Source: Tyzzerella sp. (lineage in GTDB: Bacteria; Bacillota; Clostridia; Lachnospirales; Lachnospiraceae). Taken from it: a DNA stretch of 64,000 nt. Position numbers and translations under genes: made by a program. Below are positions 3,627 to 58,356 of the stretch, one piece after another. The stretch is from assembly GCA_017410145.1 (NCBI GenBank), contig JAFQRJ010000003.1:38494-102493 (forward strand), read 5' to 3'. The notes below the pieces were generated by a model. That model was not told where the DNA came from. It made no database searches and was given only the letters and a program-made list of their open reading frames with translations. Each line of letters begins with the position of its first letter. The first letter of the stretch is position 1.

Positions 3627-4803
3627 GTCCTTCTCCTTTGTTTACATTCTTATATCGATAATACATATGCACGTATTTAATTGCATTGAACCGTTTGTTT
3701 CCTTTTAACTGATAAACTTTTTTATCGTGATAGATATTCAGTTTATTTCGTCCAAGCACGGAAATGGCCGTCACTTCGTCAAACAGAAAAACTTTTTCAT
3801 CAATAATTATTCTATCTCCGTATAATTCAATCGATGCATTCTCTTTTATAGGTTCTTTATGTTTATACACAATTACCTCAGAAAAAGAAGCTGTTTCCCT
3901 GTACATTGGTTCTGCAACGTATTCATTTGGGTCCATTTTATTCACGAAAGTTTTCTGATACTCATACCAATCGTTTATGAAACGAAATGGGGATTCAAAA
4001 CCTACGCCTTGCAATTCTTTCGTTGGGAGATATTGATATTCACGGTTACATTTCTTACATGCAACCTTATCCCCATGACTTTCGAACACGGATAAACCAC
4101 AATGCGGACATATGTATAATAATCTTTCCAGATACTCTGCATTTTTCTTGTGATAGAAGTTATTTGTCACTTTCGCATCATTTACATACAACTCTTTTTG
4201 TATGATTTCATACAGCTCATCATTACTCATTTGCTTATATTCCTCCGGCATAATGACCCGAGAGAAATACGCTCGCATTTTTCCTCTGCGCGACTTGTCA
4301 CACCATCTTGGCTGAACCCCGTATCCATCTTCAATACGGAAAAATGCAATCGGTAAATTCAATGTTTTCGAAAGGGATGCAATTGCAGGATTCATGTACT
4401 CTGTTTTCCCGCTATACGTACGGTTTCCTTCCGGTGCAATGGCAATGGTTCCGCCTTCCTTGGCTACTTTGTAGCAATTTCTCACCGCTTGTATATCCGT
4501 CGTCTGCTTCTTGATTGGAATCGGTGCTATCAGATATCGAATCAAAGAAGATACCCAGCCAAGTGAGAAAATATCCTCTGTGGCAACATAGTATATTGGT
4601 CCTTTAAATGACATGCCAACAAAAAACTGGTCAAATACCATCTGATGATTTAACAAAATCAGATATGGTCTGTGCTGTTGGTCTTTCATTGGTTCAATTT
4701 TTATTCCAAATTTTAATCGACAATATGGATACATGACTATATATAAAAGATTTCTCACCACATGATGTCGAAAATGTATCCATTTTTTCTTTTTTTTGCT
4801 CAT
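3604..4803 (-). CDS. PlsC-type acyltransferase with C-terminal zinc ribbon
   Basis: A 399-residue protein. Residues about 45-200 are a glycerolipid acyltransferase domain: the catalytic NHQMVFD (H53-x4-D58) and the acyl-acceptor motif PEGNRT (124-129). It would transfer an acyl chain to a lysophospholipid or related alcohol at the membrane. Unlike plain PlsC (about 240 residues), it carries a four-cysteine zinc ribbon, CPHC (232/235) and CKKC (249/252), followed by about 140 residues with no recognised fold. TAGGA precedes the ATG by 7 bases. The gene overlaps the downstream GltS-like gene. A normal plsC occurs at 19.1 kb, so this one probably has a specialised substrate. Confidence 0.78.
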   Translation of the reverse strand: MSKKKKKWIHFRHHVVRNLLYIVMYPYCRLKFGIKIEPMKDQQHRPYLILLNHQMVFDQFFVGMSFKGPIYYVATEDIFSLGWVSSLIRYLIAPIPIKKQTTDIQAVRNCYKVAKEGGTIAIAPEGNRTYSGKTEYMNPAIASLSKTLNLPIAFFRIEDGYGVQPRWCDKSRRGKMRAYFSRVIMPEEYKQMSNDELYEIIQKELYVNDAKVTNNFYHKKNAEYLERLLYICPHCGLSVFESHGDKVACKKCNREYQYLPTKELQGVGFESPFRFINDWYEYQKTFVNKMDPNEYVAEPMYRETASFSEVIVYKHKEPIKENASIELYGDRIIIDEKVFLFDEVTAISVLGRNKLNIYHDKKVYQLKGNKRFNAIKYVHMYYRYKNVNKGEGHEQFLGL

Positions 4804-4865
4804 TTGTATTTCCTACCTTTGTCCTAATAACAATCTTTATTATACCTAATTCTTAATTTTATGTA

Positions 4866-4909
4866 AAGAAAAACGCCAGAGATAGTTTTTTATACTATTT
4901 CTGACGTTT
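4866..4909 (-). terminator. Terminator after the phosphopantetheinyl transferase gene
   Basis: Leftward, AAACGTCAGAAATAG pairs with CTATCTCTGGCGTTT around an A-rich loop, followed by TTCTTT. It lies 8 bases past the transferase stop and separates it from the acyltransferase gene. Confidence 0.75.
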
Positions 4910-4916
4910 CTTGTTT

Positions 4917-5510
4917 TTACAATTTTTCCCAGATTATTTCTGCAAACTCATTTTCTTTTGCACAGACTGTTATCTGATACCCCGGCACCTCATATTCTTT
5001 AAAATAACACCCCGTCATTTCCAATGTTTGAAGTGGTACACGAATGCCGGTTCCATTCATTTTCAGAAAACTTTCTTTTCTCGTCCAAAGACGATAAAAT
5101 TCACAATTATATTCATCACAGTCTAAGCCTTTTAAGTACGCCCTCTCCGCAGGTGAAAATGCACGTTCTTCTACCTGTTTCGGCGCATTCTTCACTCTTT
5201 CGATGTCACATCCCACCGGCCTTTGACTCACTGCGCAGATTACATAATTACCAGAATGCGAGAGGTTAAAGCAGATACCCTTCGCTATCAGTTTCCCATT
5301 TTCATCCGTTGCAAGTGTATCTTCTGAAACACCATGCCTGCAAAAGACTTGATGTAGCAGTAATCCTGCCCCCAGCCTTTGTAGTCTGTTTTGTTTTTGC
5401 TTTGTGTTCCGAATCTTCTTTTGCCGTTTCTCTGAAAGTTCTTCCATAATTTGAGCATTTTCTAACGGCTCCGGTAATGCAGAGATATCCGCTATATATA
5501 AGTATACCAT
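4917..5510 (-). CDS. 4'-phosphopantetheinyl transferase (Sfp/AcpT superfamily)
   Basis: A 197-residue enzyme that moves the 4'-phosphopantetheine arm of CoA to a carrier-protein serine. Seen: the NLSHSG motif (82-87), GCDIE with metal-binding D102/E104, and the family signature FYRLWTRKESFLK with W142, K145, E146 and K150. It is a little shorter than Sfp (about 224) but complete in all motifs. The start ATG is 2 bases after the stop of the foldase lipoprotein gene upstream, with only a weak Shine-Dalgarno, so translation is probably coupled. No PKS/NRPS genes are nearby, so a housekeeping or fatty-acid ACP target is as likely as a secondary-metabolite one. Confidence 0.88.
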   Translation of the reverse strand: MVYLYIADISALPEPLENAQIMEELSEKRQKKIRNTKQKQNRLQRLGAGLLLHQVFCRHGVSEDTLATDENGKLIAKGICFNLSHSGNYVICAVSQRPVGCDIERVKNAPKQVEERAFSPAERAYLKGLDCDEYNCEFYRLWTRKESFLKMNGTGIRVPLQTLEMTGCYFKEYEVPGYQITVCAKENEFAEIIWEKL

Positions 5511-5514
5511 GCTC

Positions 5515-6726
5515 TTACTCTGTTGCAGTTTCTGAAGATTCTTTTTCAGACTCTGTTCCTGTCTCAGTTCCGGTCTGAGTCTGGGTTTCTGTCTTCTTTG
5601 GTTCTACTATTTTGCAATTATCCCACAAGAAGTCCAAAATCATTTCTTGGAAGGTAGCTTTTCTTATCATTTCTTTCAATTCGTCTTCGTCATCGCTTTC
5701 TTCCTCTAGCTTTTCCTTGTACTCCTCCAAGTCATAACCAGCCAATTTTGCCTGTTTCTCCAAGAACGCATCAATATCCTTTTGTTTAACCTTAATCTTT
5801 TCTACTTTCGCAATTAAGTCCATTGACATCTGAAGTGCGTGTTGCATTTTTGCCATCTCTTCAATGGTAGTGCCGTACATAGAGGAAACAAATTCATCTA
5901 CTGTCATTCCATATGTAGATTCAACTTCCTCTACACTGGTGCCTGACATAGATGCCACGTAGCTCAGATACCCTTGATATTCTTGCTCGTAGTATTCTTT
6001 AGCCTCTTTCTTGTGCTCTTTTAAATCTTCCTTCGGATACTCTTTCACATCCCATTGCGCACTCAAAAGACCGAATAAACTAGAACGCATCTGATCTTCA
6101 GCCACTTCCTGATTGCTCTTCTCTAAATCAGCTTTCACTAATTTCTTATAATCTTCCACATTCTTGGCTTTTGGATTCAACTTCTTTGCAGTCTCATCTG
6201 TCAGCTCCGGAACTTTTACCTCTACAACCTTTTTCAATGTCATGGTGAAAACAACTGCTTTGCCAGCCATTTCTTCAGCAGCATAGTCCTCCGGAAAGGT
6301 CATTGGTACTTCAAATGTTTCATCGGCTTTATGTCCTACAATACCTTTCTGGAAATCCTCAAGCGGTTTGCCCGGCTTAACTTCTCCTAATATAAAAGTG
6401 TCTGAGCCTGTGCCACCCTCAAACGCCACTCCGTCTAATCTGCCCGCATAATCCACCGTTACCTGATCACCATTTTTAGCTCCACGGTCCTTTACTTCTT
6501 CATAGCTTGTCAATGTTTGAATGTCTGAATCAATAGCGCCTTGCACATCTTCGTCCGTAACAGCTATCGGCTCAACCTTTTCCACTTCAAGCCCTTTCCA
6601 CTTCTTTACCGTGATATAATCATTATAGACTTCTCCATTATCCCCAATCTTGTAACCTCTGCCACAACCTGTAGCCGTTGCAATCATAGTTAAAGCTAGG
6701 AATAATGCCATAATTCTCTTTTTCAT
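5515..6726 (-). CDS. Trigger-factor-like FKBP peptidyl-prolyl isomerase lipoprotein
   Basis: A 403-residue secreted foldase. It has a lipoprotein signal peptide (MKKRIMALFLALTMIATATG then C21), so it should sit on the outer face of the membrane. Residues about 83-170 form an FKBP-type domain (GDQVTVDYAGRLDGVAFEGG ... FTMTLKKV) and the following helical part, with EVPELTDETAKKL and a long charged stretch, resembles the trigger factor C-terminal chaperone. Ribosome-binding trigger factor itself is cytosolic, so this is the extracytoplasmic relative common in Lachnospiraceae. The last 25 residues are a Thr/Glu/Ser-rich disordered tail. CGGAGAA precedes the start. Likely co-transcribed with the downstream transferase. 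Confidence 0.85.
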   Translation of the reverse strand: MKKRIMALFLALTMIATATGCGRGYKIGDNGEVYNDYITVKKWKGLEVEKVEPIAVTDEDVQGAIDSDIQTLTSYEEVKDRGAKNGDQVTVDYAGRLDGVAFEGGTGSDTFILGEVKPGKPLEDFQKGIVGHKADETFEVPMTFPEDYAAEEMAGKAVVFTMTLKKVVEVKVPELTDETAKKLNPKAKNVEDYKKLVKADLEKSNQEVAEDQMRSSLFGLLSAQWDVKEYPKEDLKEHKKEAKEYYEQEYQGYLSYVASMSGTSVEEVESTYGMTVDEFVSSMYGTTIEEMAKMQHALQMSMDLIAKVEKIKVKQKDIDAFLEKQAKLAGYDLEEYKEKLEEESDDEDELKEMIRKATFQEMILDFLWDNCKIVEPKKTETQTQTGTETGTESEKESSETATE

Positions 6727-49469: not shown

Positions 49470-50426
49470 TCTTTTTTTCAACAAGTCCTCAAGTTCCTCG
49501 TAAGACTCTACCGCGTTAATCTCTCCTCGTAATTTTGCGGAATTTGGAAGACCTGTGGTGTACCATGCCACATGCTTTCTCATTTCACGAATTCCCAAAT
49601 AATCTCCTTTATACTGCATCTGAAGTCTTGCATGTCTGAGCATCATTTCCTTCAGTTCCTCATGGCTTGGACGAGCAGGCATCTGACCAGTCTTTTCATA
49701 TTCGCGCAGTTCTGAGAATAACCAAGGATTCCCTTGCGCACCTCGCCCAATCATAACACCATCGCATCCCGTCTTTTGCATCATGGCGAGTGCACTTTCG
49801 CCGGATGTCACATCACCATTTCCGATTACAGGAATAGAAACTGCATCTTTCACTTGACGAATAATATCCCAATCTGCTTTCCCGGAATAGTATTGTTCTC
49901 TGGTTCTGCCGTGTACCGCAACTGCTGCTCCACCGGCATCTTCGATAATCTTTGCAATTTCTACTGCATTTATACTCTCATCGTTAAATCCTTTGCGAAT
50001 TTTTACAGTAACCGGCTTTTGAATGGCTTTCACAGTCTTCTCCACAATCTCATGAACCAGTTTCGGTTGGTTCATCAAAGCTGAGCCCTCGCCGTTTTTT
50101 ACAATCTTCGGAACCGGGCATCCCATATTAATATCCAAAATTGCAAATGGTAATTCTTCAATTTGCTTTGCCACCTCGCTCATTACTTCCGGGTCTGAAC
50201 CAAAAAGCTGCAAAGACACCGGTTCTTCTTCCGGATGAATTTCCAATAAAGCCTTTGTGTTTTTATTATGATATTGAATTGCTTTTGCACTAATCATTTC
50301 CATACACAAAAGTCCCGCCCCTTGCTCTTTGCATAGCAAGCGAAATGGCAGGTCTGTTACGCCTGCCATAGGTGCCAAAATATATGGATTTGAAAGTTCG
50401 ACATTTCCAATCTTCAATTTTTTCAT
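49461..50426 (-). CDS. dus: tRNA-dihydrouridine synthase
   Basis: A 321-residue FMN enzyme that reduces uridine to dihydrouridine in tRNA D-loops. Seen: LAPMAGVTDLPFRLLCKEQG, EMISAKAI, the catalytic Cys in DINMGCPVPKIVKNGEGSALM, PVTVKIRKGFND and VAVHGRTREQYYSGKADWDII. It starts 2 bases after coaX ends. DusB-like, but subfamily is not certain from the sequence. Confidence 0.94.
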   Translation of the reverse strand: MKKLKIGNVELSNPYILAPMAGVTDLPFRLLCKEQGAGLLCMEMISAKAIQYHNKNTKALLEIHPEEEPVSLQLFGSDPEVMSEVAKQIEELPFAILDINMGCPVPKIVKNGEGSALMNQPKLVHEIVEKTVKAIQKPVTVKIRKGFNDESINAVEIAKIIEDAGGAAVAVHGRTREQYYSGKADWDIIRQVKDAVSIPVIGNGDVTSGESALAMMQKTGCDGVMIGRGAQGNPWLFSELREYEKTGQMPARPSHEELKEMMLRHARLQMQYKGDYLGIREMRKHVAWYTTGLPNSAKLRGEINAVESYEELEDLLKKRLT

Positions 50427-50427
50427 T

Positions 50428-51201
50428 TTATTCTTCTGCTTTCTTACATTTTTCGTAAATCATACGCAGGCCTTCCAACGTAAGCAATGGGTCATAAATG
50501 TCAATCACATCTGTCTCCGGCACAATAATATTTCCAAGTCCGCCAGTTGCAACTACGATTGCATCCTCATAACCGTTTTCCTTCATTTTCTTGACAATAT
50601 ACTCTGTCTGACCAATATATCCAAACACAAGACCGCCCTGCATGCTGGATACGGTTTCTTTTGCTATGATGGAATTCGGTTTGCGAATCTCAATTTCAGG
50701 CAACATAGCAGCACCGCCCCAGAGTGCTCTCGCCGATGTTCTGATACCTGGCGAAATCACACCACCTTCAAACACACCGTCTGCTGTAACAATGTCGTAG
50801 GTGGTAGCCGTTCCAAAATCGATAACAATCACCGGACCGCCATATTTCTCGTATGCCGCAACCGCATCTACAATACGGTCAGGTCCTATCTCCTTCGGGT
50901 GTTCTGTATTAATTTTTAATCCCATCTCTAAAGTGCTTGGCACGAAAGGTCTGACGTGAAAATATTTGATAATCGCACTGGTCAAAGAGTGCATCACATC
51001 CGGCACTACAGAAGATACAATCACATCTGTAATATCTTTGATATCAAAATCCCGATGTTCTAACAAAGCACAAAGCTGGATACCATATTCGTCGGATGTT
51101 CTAGGCTGTTTTGCTGTGGCACGAAAAGTGGCCTTGATTTCCTTACCGTCAAACACACCCAAGGTAATATGTGTATTCCCAACATCAACTACTAATAACA
51201 T
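50428..51201 (-). CDS. coaX: Type III pantothenate kinase
   Basis: A 257-residue first enzyme of CoA synthesis, the CoA-insensitive type. Motifs: [51 protein letters not shown] and [22 protein letters not shown] before the ATG is in the last codons of the upstream gene, whose stop it overlaps by 1 base. BirA follows the same cofactor theme one gene further upstream. Confidence 0.95.
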
Positions 51202-51530
51202 TATACTTCCTCCCCTAAAAAGAATACTTTATAGTATAATTGTAACGCTTCTAATAGTTCTTCTTTGGTTCTTTGAAGTTCTTTGATTTTTAAATGACTA
51301 CCAATTTCATCAAAGAAGAAATCATTCTCCTCACTTGACACTTCAAACATAAGTTCTCCATTTTCTTCAAAAACCAGTGTAAGTGTTCCTCCTACATCTT
51401 CCGTGAATAACACACACATAATTTTCAATTCATCTTTGATATTCTCCGGAAGCGCTTCAAAATCCGGGTTTAAATAAAATTTCTGTTCATAGGAATTCGC
51501 GCCACACAGTATCATCTTTTCTTCGTACAT
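51201..51530 (-). CDS. Small acidic protein, probably DUF6145
   Basis: A 109-residue acidic protein, [20 protein letters not shown], then [20 protein letters not shown]. It looks like a conserved Lachnospiraceae family I know as DUF6145; no function is known. It is tightly packed between birA and coaX, with its Shine-Dalgarno ATAGGAGG overlapping the birA stop, so it may concern CoA or biotin metabolism by position only. Confidence 0.62.
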
Positions 51531-51538
51531 AGTTCCTC

Positions 51539-52294
51539 CTATATGTACCCGTACACTCCTCGCACGGACACTTCACCGGCATACACTTGTTTTATGGTAC
51601 CGTCTTCTAATCGTACCAGCAATTCGCCTTTTTCATTAACGCCAAGTGCATATGCCGTATATTCATTTCCTGTTTCCAAAATGCATACTTCTCGATTCTT
51701 GTTCACAAGGATGGCATTATAATCTTCCTGCAAGAACTTCAAGTCGCCTGCTTTCACAAACCGTTCATACATTTCCATAAATCTTTCCAAGATATCGGTA
51801 ATTATCGCGTCTTTTTCCATGAGTTTTCCACATTCCAGAAAGAGAGAGGTTGCTTTATCCACAAGTTCTTCTGAAAATGCGGATGTATTCACATTCACTC
51901 CAACTCCAACCACAACGTGGTCTATCTCCGAACCATTCAGCTGCATCTCTGTCAGAATACCACATAATTTTTTCCCGGAAATCACCAAATCGTTGGGCCA
52001 TTTAATCTGCACATCTGAAAACCCTCTCTTCCGAAGTGCATCTGCCACACTATAAGCCATCACCAGCGTAAGCATAGGCGCCTTATCTGTTTCAAAAGTT
52101 GGTCGTAGCAAAACAGACATATAAATACTGTCCCCCACCGGAGATTCCCATATGCGGCCACGTCTGCCTTTTCCGGCGGTCTGGCATTCTGCAACCACAA
52201 CAGTGCCATGCTCCGCCCCATCTCGCGCCAATTCGGATATCTTGGTGTTTGTGGAATCCAATTGTTTATAATATCGAATGTTTTTATTCTCCAA
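51539..52294 (-). CDS. birA: Biotin--protein ligase, single-domain type
   Basis: A 251-residue enzyme that activates biotin and attaches it to carboxylase BCCP. Motifs: [49 protein letters not shown] and VGVGVNVN. It lacks the N-terminal helix-turn-helix of the E. coli form, so it is not a repressor. The start is TTG, inside the last codons of the OTC part upstream (11-base overlap), with a weak GGTGG ribosome site. Confidence 0.92.
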
Positions 52295-54320
52295 GTGTAG
52301 CCACCATTACTGCTTTGATTGTATGCAGACGATTTTCTGCTTCATCAAACACAACATCTGCAAATCTTTCAAACACATCCTCTGTTACTTCATTTCCTTT
52401 TACAGCCGGCAGACAGTGCATGAAAATCGTACCTTCTTTTCCTGTCCGTTCCATCAACTGCTGGTTAATTTGATATGGATGTAACAATGCAATTCGCTCT
52501 ACTGTCTTGTCTTCTTCACCCATAGAGCACCAAACATCTGTATACAATACGTCAGCGCCTTCCACTGCATCTACCGCATCAGTGATTGTAACTGTGGCAC
52601 CGGACTCATTGGCATATCCCTTACACAATTCTACAAGGCTTTCCTCCGGCCACAATTCCTTCGGCGCAATAATTGCAAAATTCACACCAACCTTGGCACA
52701 TCCAATCATAAGACTGTTAGCCATATTATTACGTCCATCACCCAAATATACGAAGTTCAGGCCCTTCACATATCCAAAATGCTCCTTCATTGTAAGAAAA
52801 TCAGCAAGTATCTGTGTCGGATGGTATTCATCGGTCAAACCATTCCACACCGGCACTCCACTGTACTGAGCGAGCTGCTCTACATGCTCGTGCTTGAAAC
52901 CACGAAATTCAATTCCGTCAAACATACGTCCCAATACGCGTGCTGTATCCTTTACACTTTCTTTATAACCCAATTGAATATCATGCTGGGAAAGATACGT
53001 CGGGATACCTCCTTCATCCTGTGCACCTACTGTAAATGCACAGCGGGTTCTCGTAGAAGGTTTTTCAAAAATCAACGCAATGTTCTTTCCCTTCAACGAA
53101 TTTCCGGTGATTCCTCTCTTTTTCTTTTCTTTCAAATCTGCAGCCAGATCCACCAAATACATAATCTCATCAGCTGTAAAATCTTTCAATGTCAAAAAAT
53201 TTCGTCCTTTTAAGTTCATCTCATAATCCTTTCTCATGCCCATAAACATATGCACAAAACGTGGTAAATTCATTTTATCTCTACGCAGCTTGTATTGTCT
53301 GTATACCTCACACTCCAACTCACTTACAGTATAAATCCGATACTTTGGTACATGAAGCAACTTTGCACTCGCCTCAAGCATTGCAAGATAGAAGTCCATA
53401 TCTGTAAATTTGCGCGACAATCTCAAAACAAAGGCAATCTCTGCTTTTTCAATTTCACTCAAACTCTCTAGTATCTTTTCATAATACCACTGTTCGCGCG
53501 TTTGTTCAATATAATAAATTTGACCTATTAGGCCGTAAATCATCCGCTTGGCATCGAAATATCCAAGTCTGAAATTTCGTTTACTGCGGCGTTTGTCAAA
53601 TTCAATGATACTTCCAAGCTTAACCTTTGGGGCTATCTCATATAGCATTGCACCTTCCCGAGCTTTGACCCTTTGTACCCGTCCCGGGCCATAGATGCGG
53701 ATTTGAATAATATCCTTATACCCACGTTCTAACAAAGAATTGACCGGGAAATTGTTGATAATTCCTCCGTCTATATATGTTTGTCCGTGTAGTTTTTCAT
53801 TTTTAAATCCAAACAAATACGCACTGGCTAAAAGAAAATCTTCCAAAAGCCCATCTGGAATGTCGTGGATACTAAGGTCGATTTCCTTCATTTGTGTAAT
53901 TGAAAAGGTTAAAAGACACAATTCAATCCCCGACTCACGAATCTTCTTTTCATCGACATGTTGGTGTATTAGGTTCCGCAGAGGAGTAATGTCAACGCCA
54001 CCCTCCGAAATAATTTCCAGGCCTTTTCGCAAAATGTCACGAATTGAATTTTCACCACTAAACAAGCCTTCCATCCACGCATCATCCACATCCATAACAT
54101 GGGAAAATGTAATTTCGTTCCAAATCTGTTCCGCCTGTTCCATATCTCCCATACATATGAGAGCTCCATTTAACGCACCCACTGATGTACCCGCCACGGC
54201 ATTCACCTTGACGCCGGCTTCAGAAAGGGCCTTCCACGCCCCCATCTGATATGCGCCTCTGGCACCACCACCATCAAGGACAATACCATACTCTTTTGTC
54301 AAATCAATTACCGGATTCAT
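52284..54320 (-). CDS. Patatin-like phospholipase fused in frame to ornithine carbamoyltransferase
   Basis: One 678-codon frame with two complete enzymes. Residues about 10-340: patatin lipase, with oxyanion loop [10 protein letters not shown] (16-25), nucleophile GTSVG (S46) and catalytic DGG (D184). Residues 368-678: ornithine carbamoyltransferase, [19 protein letters not shown], carbamoyl-phosphate site STRTR (422-426), HPTQ (500-503), ornithine loop SMG (599-601) and HCLP (635-638). Residue 368 is a Met with AAAGGA 7 bases upstream (53227-53232), exactly where free OTC begins, so OTC may also be made separately. It could be a real fusion, or two genes fused because the patatin stop was lost. 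The OTC part would synthesise citrulline in arginine metabolism. Confidence 0.85.
53217..53232 (-). promoter_or_regulatory. Internal ribosome site and start codon for ornithine carbamoyltransferase
   Basis: Leftward AAAGGA (53232-53227), 7 bases, ATG (53219-53217) encoding Met368 of the long frame. The sequence after it, [14 protein letters not shown], is the normal N-terminus of the enzyme. Confidence 0.65.
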
Positions 54321-54342
54321 GTGAACACCCCCATTTATGATG

Positions 54343-54368
54343 TAAAAGGAGTGTACTTAAGTACACCC
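54343..54368 (-). terminator. Terminator after the SPFH gene
   Basis: Leftward, a self-complementary GAGTGTACTTAAGTACACTC is followed by CTTTTAC. It separates the SPFH/NfeD unit from the patatin-OTC gene. Confidence 0.65.
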
Positions 54369-54384
54369 CCTCTGTTCGTATCTC

Positions 54385-55317
54385 CTATTCTTCCTTTGCC
54401 ACTTCAACAATCGATTTCGCAAGTCCTGCGATACCTTGAAGCTCTGATGGAATAATAATCTTTGTTGCTTTTCCATCTGCTGCCTTTTCAAATGCTTCTA
54501 AGCTCTTAATGGTAAGCACTGCCTGGTCTGCTCCCGCTTCTTTCAAGAAACGGATACCATCTGCATTTGCCTGTTGTACTTTTAAGATAGCTTCTGCTTC
54601 ACCTTCCGCTTCGCGAATTCTTCTTTCCTTTTCTGCTTCTGCTCGAAGAATTGCAGACTGTTTCTCAGCCTCCGCTTCCAAAATCACAGACTGTTTGTTA
54701 CCTTCCGCCACAAGAATCGTTGATTTCTTTTCACCTTCTGCACGAAGAATGGCTTCACGACGTTCACGTTCTGCTTTCATCTGTTTTTCCATGGCATCCT
54801 GAATCGCTGCCGGTGGAATAATGTTCTTAAGTTCCACACGATTCACCTTGATACCCCAAGGGTCTGTTGCCACATCCAATGAAGCACGCATTTTCGTATT
54901 AATGGTCTCTCTGGAAGTCAATGTCTGGTCTAACTCTAAATCACCGATGATGTTACGAAGGGTTGTGGCCGTCAGATTCTCAATGGCCATAATCGGATTG
55001 GCAACACCATAGCAGAATAATTTCGGGTCGGTAATCTGATAAAATACAACCGTATCAATTCTCATTGTAACGTTATCTTTTGTAATAACCGGTTGTGGTG
55101 CAAAGTCCACTACTTGCTCTTTCAAATCTACTCTTCTTGCCACACGTTCAATAATTGGAATCTTGAAATGTAAACCTACACCCCAAGTCGCCTGATAAGC
55201 ACCCAGTCTTTCCACTACCAAAGCCTGTGCCTGTTCCACAATCTTCACACATGAGAGCAACAATGCTACAACAATAACTACTAAAACTATCCCTAAGAAT
55301 CCTATAATACCTTCCAT
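54385..55317 (-). CDS. SPFH/Band 7 (stomatin-like) membrane protein
   Basis: A 310-residue protein with an N-terminal membrane helix (IIGFLGIVLVVIVVALLLSC), then a SPFH domain (VVERLGAYQATWGVGLHFKI, VDLKEQVVDFAPQPVITKDN) and a long charged Ala/Glu coiled coil with repeats such as ILRAEGEKKSTILVAEG. Such proteins build membrane microdomains and oligomeric cages with a C-terminal conserved segment. It is paired with NfeD, 3 bases apart, as in bacteria generally. Confidence 0.92.
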   Translation of the reverse strand: MEGIIGFLGIVLVVIVVALLLSCVKIVEQAQALVVERLGAYQATWGVGLHFKIPIIERVARRVDLKEQVVDFAPQPVITKDNVTMRIDTVVFYQITDPKLFCYGVANPIMAIENLTATTLRNIIGDLELDQTLTSRETINTKMRASLDVATDPWGIKVNRVELKNIIPPAAIQDAMEKQMKAERERREAILRAEGEKKSTILVAEGNKQSVILEAEAEKQSAILRAEAEKERRIREAEGEAEAILKVQQANADGIRFLKEAGADQAVLTIKSLEAFEKAADGKATKIIIPSELQGIAGLAKSIVEVAKEE

Positions 55318-55320
55318 AAA

Positions 55321-55755
55321 TTAAGCCTCCTCTTTCTTCACAATCAATTTCACACCTTGAATTCCTTCAATGGATACAACTGTACCTGCTTCAATAACCG
55401 CTGTCACGTCTTCTACTTTCGCAGCCCATTCCATTCCGTTTACTTCCACACGGCCCGTACCGCGGAGCGTGTCAATGGTTTCCAGTACAACTGCCTTCTG
55501 ACCAATCAATCTATCCACATTTGTCTTTTGACGTTCCTTGTTGAAAAACTGAATCGCTATCGGTCTGGTAAGAACTAACAACAAAATGGATACCAATAAG
55601 AACACGACAATCTGTACCGGCAGGCCAGCTCCTGCAAAGGCAAGAATAAATGCAATAAGTGCTCCGCCTGCAAACCACACCGTTGTCAATCCCATTGTAA
55701 ATATCTCAATAATTAAAAGTACTACAAATAGAATTAACCAAAATATTGTTTCCAT
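55321..55755 (-). CDS. NfeD family membrane protein
   Basis: A 144-residue protein with two to three N-terminal membrane helices (IFWLILFVVLLIIEIFTMGL, LVSILLLVLTRPIAI) and a C-terminal OB fold (QKAVVLETIDTLRGTGRVEV, then MEWAAKVED). NfeD proteins partner with SPFH proteins, here the gene immediately downstream. Short form without the ClpP-like protease domain. Confidence 0.9.
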   Translation of the reverse strand: METIFWLILFVVLLIIEIFTMGLTTVWFAGGALIAFILAFAGAGLPVQIVVFLLVSILLLVLTRPIAIQFFNKERQKTNVDRLIGQKAVVLETIDTLRGTGRVEVNGMEWAAKVEDVTAVIEAGTVVSIEGIQGVKLIVKKEEA

Positions 55756-55829
55756 ACTTTCCGCCTCACTTTCAACTTCTTGATATACATATTTTACTAC
55801 ACTCGACTTTAGAATTCAATAAAACAAAA

Positions 55830-55861
55830 AAAGAGACAGAATTTATTTTTTCTGTCTCTTT
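55830..55861. terminator. Terminator after the SleB-like gene
   Basis: AAAGAGACAGAA (55830-55841) pairs with TTCTGTCTCTTT (55850-55861). Leftward it runs into TTTTTTG, an ideal terminator for the hydrolase gene. Confidence 0.85.
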
Positions 55862-55873
55862 AAAACTCCCCTA

Positions 55874-56686
55874 TTAACTGAAGTAATGGTCGCCCAATTT
55901 AAAGCTACCTCTTCTTGTATTAAAGAAAAGCGCACCATTTACCGGGTCTTTTCCTTCTAATGCATCCTGTGCTGCATCAAAACATGAACTTGGAATCTTG
56001 CCGCTTCTAAGAACACGCGCAAGTTTTCCTGTCATTGCAGGTGTAAATTGTCCTCTTTGATAAATAACTCCTTCTAAAGAGTTTGGAAAACGTCTGCTTT
56101 CAATACGGTTTAAAACAACTGCACCTACTGCAACCTTCCCATCGTATGGCTGATTTCCTGCTTCACAGAAAATAATTGCTGCCAATAATTTTACATCGCC
56201 CTGCTTTTTTTGTTCTGCTTGAATTTCCTGTATAGTCTTCGCATCTTTTGTACCACCAGCACAAACTACTTTTGCTCGCTCGACTGCTGCGCTACCGAAC
56301 AAAAGGGATGCTGTTTTTACATAACCCACAACAGCTCCTGAGGAAATCTTTGACCATTCGGTTCCTTCTTCCACTACAGTCACTACTGTGTTCTTATACA
56401 GCTTACCGATTACAGAACCATTTACTGCTGCATATACATCCAATTCACCGTCTGTATTTGCAAGTGCTTTTCCGTACCATTCTTGTGTATCAACTGCGGT
56501 GCTTGCCATTGCAGATATTTGTTCCAATCCTGTAGCAAGCGCTTCCACTTCCATTTCGAAATTTATTGTTTCCATTGCTTGAGCTTCAGATTTCGAATCA
56601 GCGGCAAATACTTCAAATTCTGCTGTGAATAACAAGCAGAGAGCAAGTAAAAGACCGACAATCCTTCTCTTTTCTCCGAAAAACAT
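55874..56686 (-). CDS. SH3-domain cell wall hydrolase, SleB/CwlJ type
   Basis: A 270-residue secreted hydrolase. A signal peptide (IVGLLLALCLLFTAEFEVFA) is followed by a helical spacer, an SH3b domain (about 79-135: DGELDVYAAVNGSVIGKLYK, EWSKISSGAVVGYVKTASLL) and the SleB/CwlJ catalytic domain (LLAAIIFCEAGNQPYDGKVA, VGAVVLNRIESRRFPNSLEG, VIYQRGQFTP). It cleaves peptidoglycan, often the spore cortex at germination, but vegetative homologues exist in this family. Tandem 11-base repeats lie upstream. Confidence 0.88.
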   Translation of the reverse strand: MFFGEKRRIVGLLLALCLLFTAEFEVFAADSKSEAQAMETINFEMEVEALATGLEQISAMASTAVDTQEWYGKALANTDGELDVYAAVNGSVIGKLYKNTVVTVVEEGTEWSKISSGAVVGYVKTASLLFGSAAVERAKVVCAGGTKDAKTIQEIQAEQKKQGDVKLLAAIIFCEAGNQPYDGKVAVGAVVLNRIESRRFPNSLEGVIYQRGQFTPAMTGKLARVLRSGKIPSSCFDAAQDALEGKDPVNGALFFNTRRGSFKLGDHYFS

Positions 56687-56750
56687 AATAACCTCCTAAT
56701 TTTGTAACAATTTTACCTGTACCTATTACATTATTATGCACGTATAATTC

Positions 56751-56784
56751 AATTTTATTACAAATTGTTACATAATTGTTACAT
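56751..56784. repeat. Three tandem 11-12-bp repeats upstream of the SleB-like gene
   Basis: AATTTTATTACA (56751-56762, imperfect) is followed by two perfect AATTGTTACAT copies (56763-56773 and 56774-56784). An 11-bp period equals one helical turn and is the hallmark of OmpR/PhoP-family binding sites. A short palindrome CGCAACAGTTGCG is next at 56791-56803. An OmpR-type response regulator is encoded 0.9 kb away. Confidence 0.55.
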
Positions 56785-56862
56785 TTCTTTCGCAACAGTT
56801 GCGATATTATCATGTTTTTTTTCGTATGTCAAGCATTAGATTGTATTTTTTTTAGTACAATT

Positions 56863-57636
56863 TTATCTTCTCTGCCTAAAAACTTCAAACATTAGGACCG
56901 AGGCAGCTATGGCTGCATTCAAAGATTCTACCTGTCCTTGCATTGGAATTTTTACCCAAATATCAGCCTTTTTGGCCACTTCCTCTCTTAGTCCGTTGCC
57001 CTCATTTCCAATTAAAATTGCGGTTCCGGCAGAATAGTCTTCTTGGTCATAAAATTTTTCTCCATTTAGATGGGCCGCGTATGATTTTACACCGTTTTTT
57101 CTAAAAATATCCAATAAATTCGGAATATCTTCTATATATATATATGGCACGCGATAAATGGAGCCCATTGTGGAACGAATGGTCTTTGGATTGTAGATAT
57201 CCACACAATCTTTACTCATAAAAACCGCATCCACACCTGCTGCTTCTGCTGTACGAACAATGGTACCCATATTCCCCGGGTCCTGCAAATTATCCAATAC
57301 AATAAAGTGTGGATTTTCCACCTTGAACAACTCATTCAAATCATATTTTTCACGTTTTACCACACAAAGAATTCCTTGCGGTGTCTTTGTATCGGAAACA
57401 TGTCCAAAGACCTGTTCCGATAGGATTTCATATGGAAAATCCTGCAAATTTAGTTCGAGTTTCTTCCTATTAAAAAGAGACTCTGAAATATATACTTTTT
57501 CCACACGATTTTTCGGTACTTCGGCAAACATACGAAGCCCCTCAACCACAAACACATTTTCCTCGTCTCGAGCCTTGGCTTTCTTCTGTAATTGAAGCAA
57601 CCTTTTTATCTGTGGATTACTTGTACTTGTTATCAT
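56863..57636 (-). CDS. SpoU/TrmH-family RNA 2'-O-methyltransferase
   Basis: A 257-residue SPOUT methyltransferase. The N-terminal substrate-binding part is ITSTSNPQIKRLLQLQKKAK, then FVVEGLRMFAEVP; the knotted catalytic domain has FIVLDNLQDPGNMGTIVRTA (motif 1), AILIGNEGNGL (motif 2) and VKIPMQGQVESLNAAIAASVLMFE (motif 3). It likely methylates 23S rRNA ribose. It begins 30 bases after the response regulator. Confidence 0.9.
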   Translation of the reverse strand: MITSTSNPQIKRLLQLQKKAKARDEENVFVVEGLRMFAEVPKNRVEKVYISESLFNRKKLELNLQDFPYEILSEQVFGHVSDTKTPQGILCVVKREKYDLNELFKVENPHFIVLDNLQDPGNMGTIVRTAEAAGVDAVFMSKDCVDIYNPKTIRSTMGSIYRVPYIYIEDIPNLLDIFRKNGVKSYAAHLNGEKFYDQEDYSAGTAILIGNEGNGLREEVAKKADIWVKIPMQGQVESLNAAIAASVLMFEVFRQRR

Positions 57637-57666
57637 TTTCTCTTCCTTTCTCTCTAATCCTGAAAG

Positions 57667-58356
57667 CTAAACTTTAAACCGATATCCCACGCCCCAGATG
57701 GTTTCAATGTATTGTGGTTTTGAGGTATCAAATTCAATCTTTTCGCGAATCTTTTTAATATGAACTGTTACAGTCGCGATATCACCAATGGATTCCATAT
57801 CCCAGATTTCACTGAAAAGCTCGTCCTTCGTATATACATGATTTGGATGCGCCGCTAGAAACGTGAGCAAATCAAATTCCTTGGTTGTAAACGCCTTCTC
57901 CTGCCCATTAATCCAAACACGACGTGCCGTTGTATCAATCTTAAGCCCACGGATCTCAATGACTTTGTTTTCTTCTACCGCGCTTCCCACCAGTCTCTCA
58001 TATCTTGCCATGTGCGCTTTCACTCTGGCAACCAATTCACTTGGGCTAAATGGTTTTGTCATGTAGTCGTCAGCTCCCAGTCCAAGCCCGCGAATCTTAT
58101 CAATGTCATCCTTCTTAGCAGACACCATAATAATCGGTGTGTTCTTCTCTGCACGAACCTGACGACAAATTTCAAATCCGTCCACTCCAGGTAACATCAA
58201 ATCCAGAATCACTAAATCATAGTCTTCTGTGAGCCCCTTTTTCAGCCCTATTTCACCGTCATTGGCAACTTCCACTTCAAAGCCACTTAATTCCAAATAA
58301 TCCTTTTCAAGTTCCGCAATTGCGCCTTCATCTTCAATAATTAATATTCTACTCAT
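57667..58356 (-). CDS. OmpR-family response regulator
   Basis: A 229-residue regulator with a receiver domain (ILIIEDEGAIAELE, phosphoacceptor in YDLVILDLMLPGVDG, VSAKKDDIDKIRGLGLGADDY) and a winged-helix domain (LKIDTTARRVWINGQEKAFT, VYTKDELFSEIWDMES, VHIKKIREKIEFD, VWGVGYRF). It overlaps the sensor kinase gene by 8 bases, and the kinase is transcribed first, the reverse of the common order. Possible target: the repeats at 56751-56784. Confidence 0.93.
   Translation of the reverse strand: MSRILIIEDEGAIAELEKDYLELSGFEVEVANDGEIGLKKGLTEDYDLVILDLMLPGVDGFEICRQVRAEKNTPIIMVSAKKDDIDKIRGLGLGADDYMTKPFSPSELVARVKAHMARYERLVGSAVEENKVIEIRGLKIDTTARRVWINGQEKAFTTKEFDLLTFLAAHPNHVYTKDELFSEIWDMESIGDIATVTVHIKKIREKIEFDTSKPQYIETIWGVGYRFKV

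Follow-up and report, generated by a model that had tools for sequence, protein, structure and literature searches.

A patatin-like lipase and an ornithine carbamoyltransferase in one open frame in Lachnospiraceae, with a conserved internal start that probably also yields the free carbamoyltransferase

The window analysed here, a stretch of 64,000 nucleotides from Tyzzerella sp. (Lachnospiraceae; contig JAFQRJ010000003.1), contains on its minus strand, at 52284..54320, a single stop-free frame of 678 codons plus a stop codon, in which a patatin-like lipase (residues 1–367) is joined directly to an ornithine carbamoyltransferase (OTC, residues 368–678). The start signal of the second gene is kept within this shared frame, such that one gene probably yields both the fusion and the free enzyme. 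In other words, a single mRNA would give two products, a patatin–OTC fusion and a free OTC, a reading to which we assign a probability of about 0.75 from sequence comparison.

Both halves are recognisable in full (Table 1). The frame holds GGGARG, GTSVG and DGG, of which we take GTSVG to be the patatin nucleophile motif (the GxSxG serine) and DGG the catalytic aspartate motif, together with STRTR, HPTQ, SMG and HCLP, which are presumably the OTC motifs. The OTC half moreover matches OTCace_N (residues 373–513, 1.5e-49) and OTCace (residues 519–674, 7.2e-54), both above the Pfam cut-off. The patatin and OTC motifs are intact in all 27 of the fused genes checked, and GTSVG is invariant across 20 aligned fused rows. 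Values of dN/dS lie at 0.03–0.17 for patatin (13 pairs) and 0.01–0.06 for OTC (the 11 of these pairs that are comparable), some pairs having saturated dS; both halves evolve under constraint. An earlier note on this DNA had described the two sets of motifs in a single 678-codon frame, an AAAGGA 7 bases ahead of the OTC methionine and an OTC of normal N-terminus after the join, all of which is borne out by the frame, by the Pfam and motif checks, and by the positions and the TIGR00658 score in Table 1.

Table 1. Features of the fused frame and its surroundings, in window coordinates.
Feature	Position	Strand	Remark
birA-like gene	51539..52294	-	presumed biotin ligase, named from its sequence; overlaps the OTC stop by 11 nt
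OTC part, 311 residues, normal N-terminus	52284..53219	-	TIGR00658, 434.4 bits against a cut-off of 280.85
TTA leucine codon, second after the ATG	53211..53213	-	
Internal ATG, putative start of free OTC	53217..53219	-	ATG 63, GTG 1, ATC 1 among 65 fused genes
Spacer TTATGAG	53220..53226	-	between AAAGGA and ATG
AAAGGA, Shine–Dalgarno-like, inside patatin codons	53227..53232	-	7 nt upstream of the ATG
Patatin part, residues 1–367	53220..54320	-	without its own stop codon
Pfam Patatin domain (PF01734), residues 13–196	53733..54284	-	6e-29, 102.1 bits against a cut-off of 27.7
DGG	53763..53771	-	motif check
GTSVG	54177..54191	-	
Hairpin between SPFH and patatin genes	54344..54373	-	z -2.9, 70 nt folded
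SPFH gene, upstream	54385..55317	-	presumed SPFH (stomatin-like) family; adjoins patatin at part of the loci
NfeD-like gene, upstream	55321..55755	-	presumed NfeD-like family; present at part of the loci

The fusion is not confined to the window and recurs across a group of gut bacteria. The full-length unbroken frame occurs in eight of the ten genomes of the genus that were searched, the window's own among them, such that the possibility raised in the earlier note, that most close relatives would have a stop codon between patatin and OTC, is not what is found. The two exceptions are G009, in which patatin and OTC lie apart, and G005, in which patatin continues in frame into a BirA-like part and OTC is absent. 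Across the family, a search with patatin alone gave a match in 156 of 397 genomes, and the fusion is present in at least 20 of the 397, that is, in 18 genera out of 334 sampled. The loci fetched from these searches comprise 72 patatin places (E down to ~1e-76; a fragment in G144 and weaker places were left out) and eight genus loci, which with the window make 81 rows, 27 of them fused. Open frames span 684–872 aa at the fused places and 370–481 aa at the other fetched places, with 641 aa for the BirA fusion of G005. A further genome scan with two peptide patterns confirmed 186 relatives, the best 80 of which (one, L141, running off its contig) divide into 58 fused, 17 split and five other loci. 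Of these fused loci, 38 add to those already counted; the record titles include Coprococcus comes, Dorea phocaeensis, Dorea sp. D27, Faecalicatena contorta, Mediterraneibacter massiliensis, M. glycyrrhizinilyticus, Sellimonas caecigallum and Sporofaciens musculi. Altogether 65 distinct fused genes were found (27 + 38), which differ from one another within the first 300 patatin residues, and the PxF motif and the OTC methionine lie 15 residues apart in 57 of them and 16–17 in two, the motif not being found in six. An order-wide survey of 246 genomes returned 24 with a patatin match at E<=1e-60; in none of the 20 of these that lie outside the family is patatin in an open frame longer than 447 aa. 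A distant patatin (34%) was seen in a 570-aa open frame at G315:C11:35937-36713.

In this regard, the idea that an assembly or sequencing error joined two genes, for which the 67.8% completeness of the window's genome assembly might speak, has next to no probability: it is already refuted because relatives carry the same frame, in 65 distinct genes that include those of the single-contig genomes G094, G240 and G331 and of AP025573.1 (L152), titled a complete genome. An assembly artefact and a chance open frame are both ruled out by these 65 copies.

The evidence for a second product lies in the conservation of the internal start. The fourth codon before the OTC methionine, the third base of which sits inside the Shine–Dalgarno core, encodes K, E, R or G; all 62 rows with K, E or R have G as the third base, which ranks it first of 144 columns. 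On the careful tree this codon has undergone at least 12 residue changes against a single third-base change, a contrast that ranks first of 423 variable codon columns (median 22). The second codon after the start is the leucine codon TTA in 63 of the 65 fused genes, though TTA makes up 8.9% of leucine codons and the next best of 26 leucine columns reaches 46%; the starts of split OTC genes have TTA in 41 of 52. The start codon itself is ATG or GTG in 64 of 65. An SD-like 4-mer is present at the junction in all 65 fused genes, and a match to a stricter set in 58; that stricter set is matched by 47% of synonymous recodings and by 14% of ATGs elsewhere in frame. Pairing with the anti-SD sequence stands at -7.25 kcal/mol at the junction. 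Synonymous recodings give -5.43 kcal/mol in the pool, where none of 300 reaches so low a value, and the figure at 1539 other in-frame ATGs is -2.92 kcal/mol. The pooled test alone is decisive, since within single genomes the median share of recodings with pairing of this strength is 32%. Split OTC starts (-9.67, n=39) and patatin starts (-8.05) pair more strongly than the junction does. Local RNA folding at the internal start is unusually weak, at -4.3 kcal/mol, where 1417 other in-frame ATGs give -13.6 and split OTC starts -5.7. Taken together, the synonymous sites, the start codon and the weak folding show that the internal OTC start is under selection.

It could be supposed instead that only the fusion is made, the internal start being unused and its conservation a relic or a protein constraint. 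A protein constraint does not explain the pattern, because the synonymous sites are conserved across the deep clade while the residues vary, and we regard a fusion as the sole product as very improbable. A case that speaks for it is L192 (Candidatus Dorea intestinavium, 4001-6049), which has ATC in place of ATG at the join and whose fused gene is the sole OTC match in its genome; against this, a TTG lies two codons further on behind GAGGGA, such that the OTC start may possibly have shifted. The GTG start belongs to L053 (genome G254), where the second leucine codon is CTG. That genome has a second, free OTC (58%; G254:C33:1455-3683) lying 30 nt after arcA, and argG is matched there by a fragment only, which fits a relaxed need for the internal start, as a single case in an assembly that is 77% complete. 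An internal promoter inside the patatin sequence could be another source of free OTC; promoter-like sites occur near the level of chance (11 found, 8.3 expected). Of the two alternatives offered in the earlier note, an OTC placed on a membrane or internal initiation, it is thus the second that stands, being well supported by the synonymous-site conservation; the first is considered below.

The two-product reading can be set out as follows. A patatin-like lipase gene would have lost its stop codon in the ancestor of the group and so come into frame with the next gene, probably an anabolic OTC, the ribosome-binding site of which came to sit in the last patatin codons. Ribosomes loading at the patatin start meet no stop codon and would have to read through, giving a fusion of ~76 kDa, while those loading at the internal AAGGA-ATG would give a free OTC of ~35 kDa, as the selection on that site suggests (both masses are estimates from length). 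The cell would then probably have two forms of OTC and little or no free patatin. Mixed OTC trimers may perhaps form, the trimers and any benefit being a guess.

The role of the OTC can be judged from the rest of the genome. In 24 of the 26 fused genomes searched there is no good OTC match besides the fused gene, other matches having at most ~32% identity; the two exceptions are the second OTC of G254 and a fragment in G113 (47%). In G000 the next OTC match stands at 27%, and an OTC was sought in the genomes G005 and G014 and none was found. Of 13 genomes, 11 have argG above its cut-off and one has arcA, which makes an anabolic role for the fused OTC probable.

On the careful patatin tree all 65 fused rows fall within one clade of 71 rows (support 100/100), the six other members of which are the split genes L132 and L074, L072 without an OTC, and L060, L170 and L173, in which patatin is fused to BirA. 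Because these exceptions are nested, a tree that forces the 65 fused rows into a clade free of exceptions is rejected (p-AU 1e-44). The fewest state changes on the patatin tree number six, which fits one gain and five losses, with the qualification that L132, its fork being open, may be ancestrally split instead of re-split. The split of L074 consists in an in-frame stop and that of L132 in a frameshift. The existence of these two split relatives, and of others without an OTC at the locus, means that the fusion is dispensable.

The OTC half, moreover, has not stayed the same. Two deep types, one of about 311 and one of about 330 residues, stand out on the OTC tree, and fused and split genes occur in both. 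The 23 short-type fused rows do not form a patatin clade apart from the 42 of the long type (rejected, p-AU 8e-124), which implies exchange of the OTC half at the same junction. At least six switches of OTC type are needed on the patatin tree, and the frame is never lost in them. The partner itself has also changed, BirA taking the place at loci without an OTC in two separate lineages, L060/L146 and L170/L173. The patatin frame of L060 closes with GGAAGGGATTATGTGACGGATTTG, which may be the remnant of an OTC start, and BirA follows; the BirA part of L170 and L173 is longer and its start, as we take it, resembles the usual N-terminal part of BirA. The genome of L173 has a separate free OTC (55% identity), and an OTC match was sought in the genome of L170 and none was found. 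In L181 and L072 the patatin and BirA genes overlap by ATGA. In the extracted loci the patatin of the BirA fusions runs from 4001 in L146 and from 4001 in L170 and L173.

A fixed partnership of lipase and OTC is doubtful, because the OTC halves have been exchanged and BirA serves as partner in two lineages, and it was set aside as the main idea on these grounds. In terms of a functional (Rosetta-stone) fusion, the partner is not constant, given BirA in two lineages and at least six changes of OTC type, while separate neighbouring parts do exist elsewhere, as 52 distinct split patatin–OTC pairs. Fifty of these pairs have gaps between -4 and 165 nt; most gaps are of 15 nt or more, and a 4-nt overlap is found in just three of the 52. 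With so few short overlaps, the step before fusion can only be inferred.

These observations bear on the suggestion that the protein is a bifunctional enzyme or a membrane anchor, in which patatin would recruit OTC to the membrane by binding lipid, or the lipase would be clustered by trimers of OTC. Both halves are indeed intact and constrained, and SPFH and NfeD-like genes lie upstream at part of the loci, the order NfeD–SPFH–patatin–OTC–BirA–CoaX, whole or partial, being common to fused and split loci. The use of BirA as a partner and the swapping of the OTC half between deep types both count against the suggestion, as does the fact that, of the 50 fused loci in the best-80 set whose flanks are complete, 36 have no SPFH or NfeD match, such that a link with these genes is not universal. 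We consider the suggestion unlikely, and we know of no pathway link between the lipase and OTC.

Whether the fusion itself is selected is a separate matter, on which we are less sure than on the two-product mechanism. The last 12 codons before the OTC methionine have undergone at least 209 residue changes, with one in-frame stop (that of L074) against 8–13 expected, giving P(<=1) of 2e-5 to 2e-3. The depletion is weaker over fewer codons (P 0.004–0.05 for the last five, 0.03–0.14 for the last three) and under a high transition bias, and the L132 frameshift is excluded from the count. Because the counts are minimum values from parsimony on a single tree, the depletion is suggestive of selection against in-frame stops at the junction. 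The fusion to BirA in lineages without an OTC at the locus also points towards a selected fusion; relatives with split genes and the switch of partner count against selection for the fusion itself. The open frame has long been kept, perhaps as a tie between the synthesis of both proteins, or perhaps because patatin gains a bulky soluble C-terminal partner, rather than because both reactions form one pathway.

The same two-product mechanism is shared by a neutral account, in which the patatin stop was lost once, OTC already started itself, and the frame then drifted, the fusion protein being made and having no role. The strongly selected internal start is in keeping with this account, since with such a start the supply of OTC need not depend on the fusion; so is the want of a fixed partner seen in the BirA fusions and the OTC exchange, and so are the split L132 and L074, which lie inside the clade or at its edge. 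It fits poorly with the single in-frame stop amid so many residue changes, with the presence of the frame in at least 18 genera, and with the fusion of patatin to BirA in two lineages where the locus has no OTC. On balance, neutral loss of the stop is a serious contender that we nevertheless judge somewhat improbable. A selected counterpart can be proposed more tentatively still, namely a device in which patatin without a stop takes the next oligomeric enzyme, OTC or BirA, as its C-terminal partner; were the partner to keep its own start, mixed OTC trimers would carry one or a few lipase arms, in a ratio set by the two ribosome sites.

Several other searches concern the locus at large. The hairpin between the SPFH and patatin genes is seen in five of the eight genus loci folded (the window, L125, L126, L127 and L130; z -2.6 to -4.2), with differing sequences and a similar shape, L128, L129 and L131 having no hairpin or another fold. 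Rfam at gathering thresholds gave no match in window positions 50000–58000. A defence role for the patatin was considered and set aside, the PADLOC matches being just weak ones (best 1.6e-5). Matches to patatin-type NCBIfam models are far below cut-off, and among phage families there is no match for the patatin and one, of unknown function, for OTC.

What emerges is a clear example from nature of two adjacent genes in one frame, the second with its own ribosome site, accompanied within a single family (at least 18 genera) by natural controls in the form of split relatives, loss of OTC and BirA as a partner. This makes the question of selected against tolerated gene fusion by stop loss directly testable. 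There is also a practical consequence, in that gene callers may report what is likely the only OTC of a genome as a protein of 680–700 residues and miss the likely free enzyme. No description of a patatin–OTC fusion was found in the literature searched, which largely omits subscription papers, and the main text of PMC4921024 contains neither patatin nor carbamoyltransferase.

Compared with ordinary OTCs (TIGR00658), the OTC half is a whole enzyme with its motifs, the closest solved chain, 1vlv, matching residues 1–309; it differs in the lipase of 367 residues at its N-terminus and in having SPFH, patatin and birA-like genes as neighbours. The patatin half similarly has the Patatin domain and the GGGARG, GTSVG and DGG motifs of patatin-like phospholipases, with PlpD (5fqu) as the closest solved chain, matching residues 10–214, and differs in that it has no stop codon of its own and runs into OTC. 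Split relatives such as those of Blautia parvula (L208), Oliverpabstia (L199) and Diplocloster (L195/L196) share the gene order and have homologous parts, with the difference that patatin and OTC are separate genes at the gaps given above. Short overlaps and translational coupling of neighbouring genes are known, as part of the text of PMC10666635 sets out, and SpaO/SctQ-type genes are described in part of the text of PMC13059759 as giving a long and a short product via internal translation initiation. The patatin–OTC gene resembles the latter in its one frame, its conserved internal start and its putative C-terminal second product; it differs in that a whole metabolic enzyme would be the short product and two unrelated enzymes would be joined in the long one.
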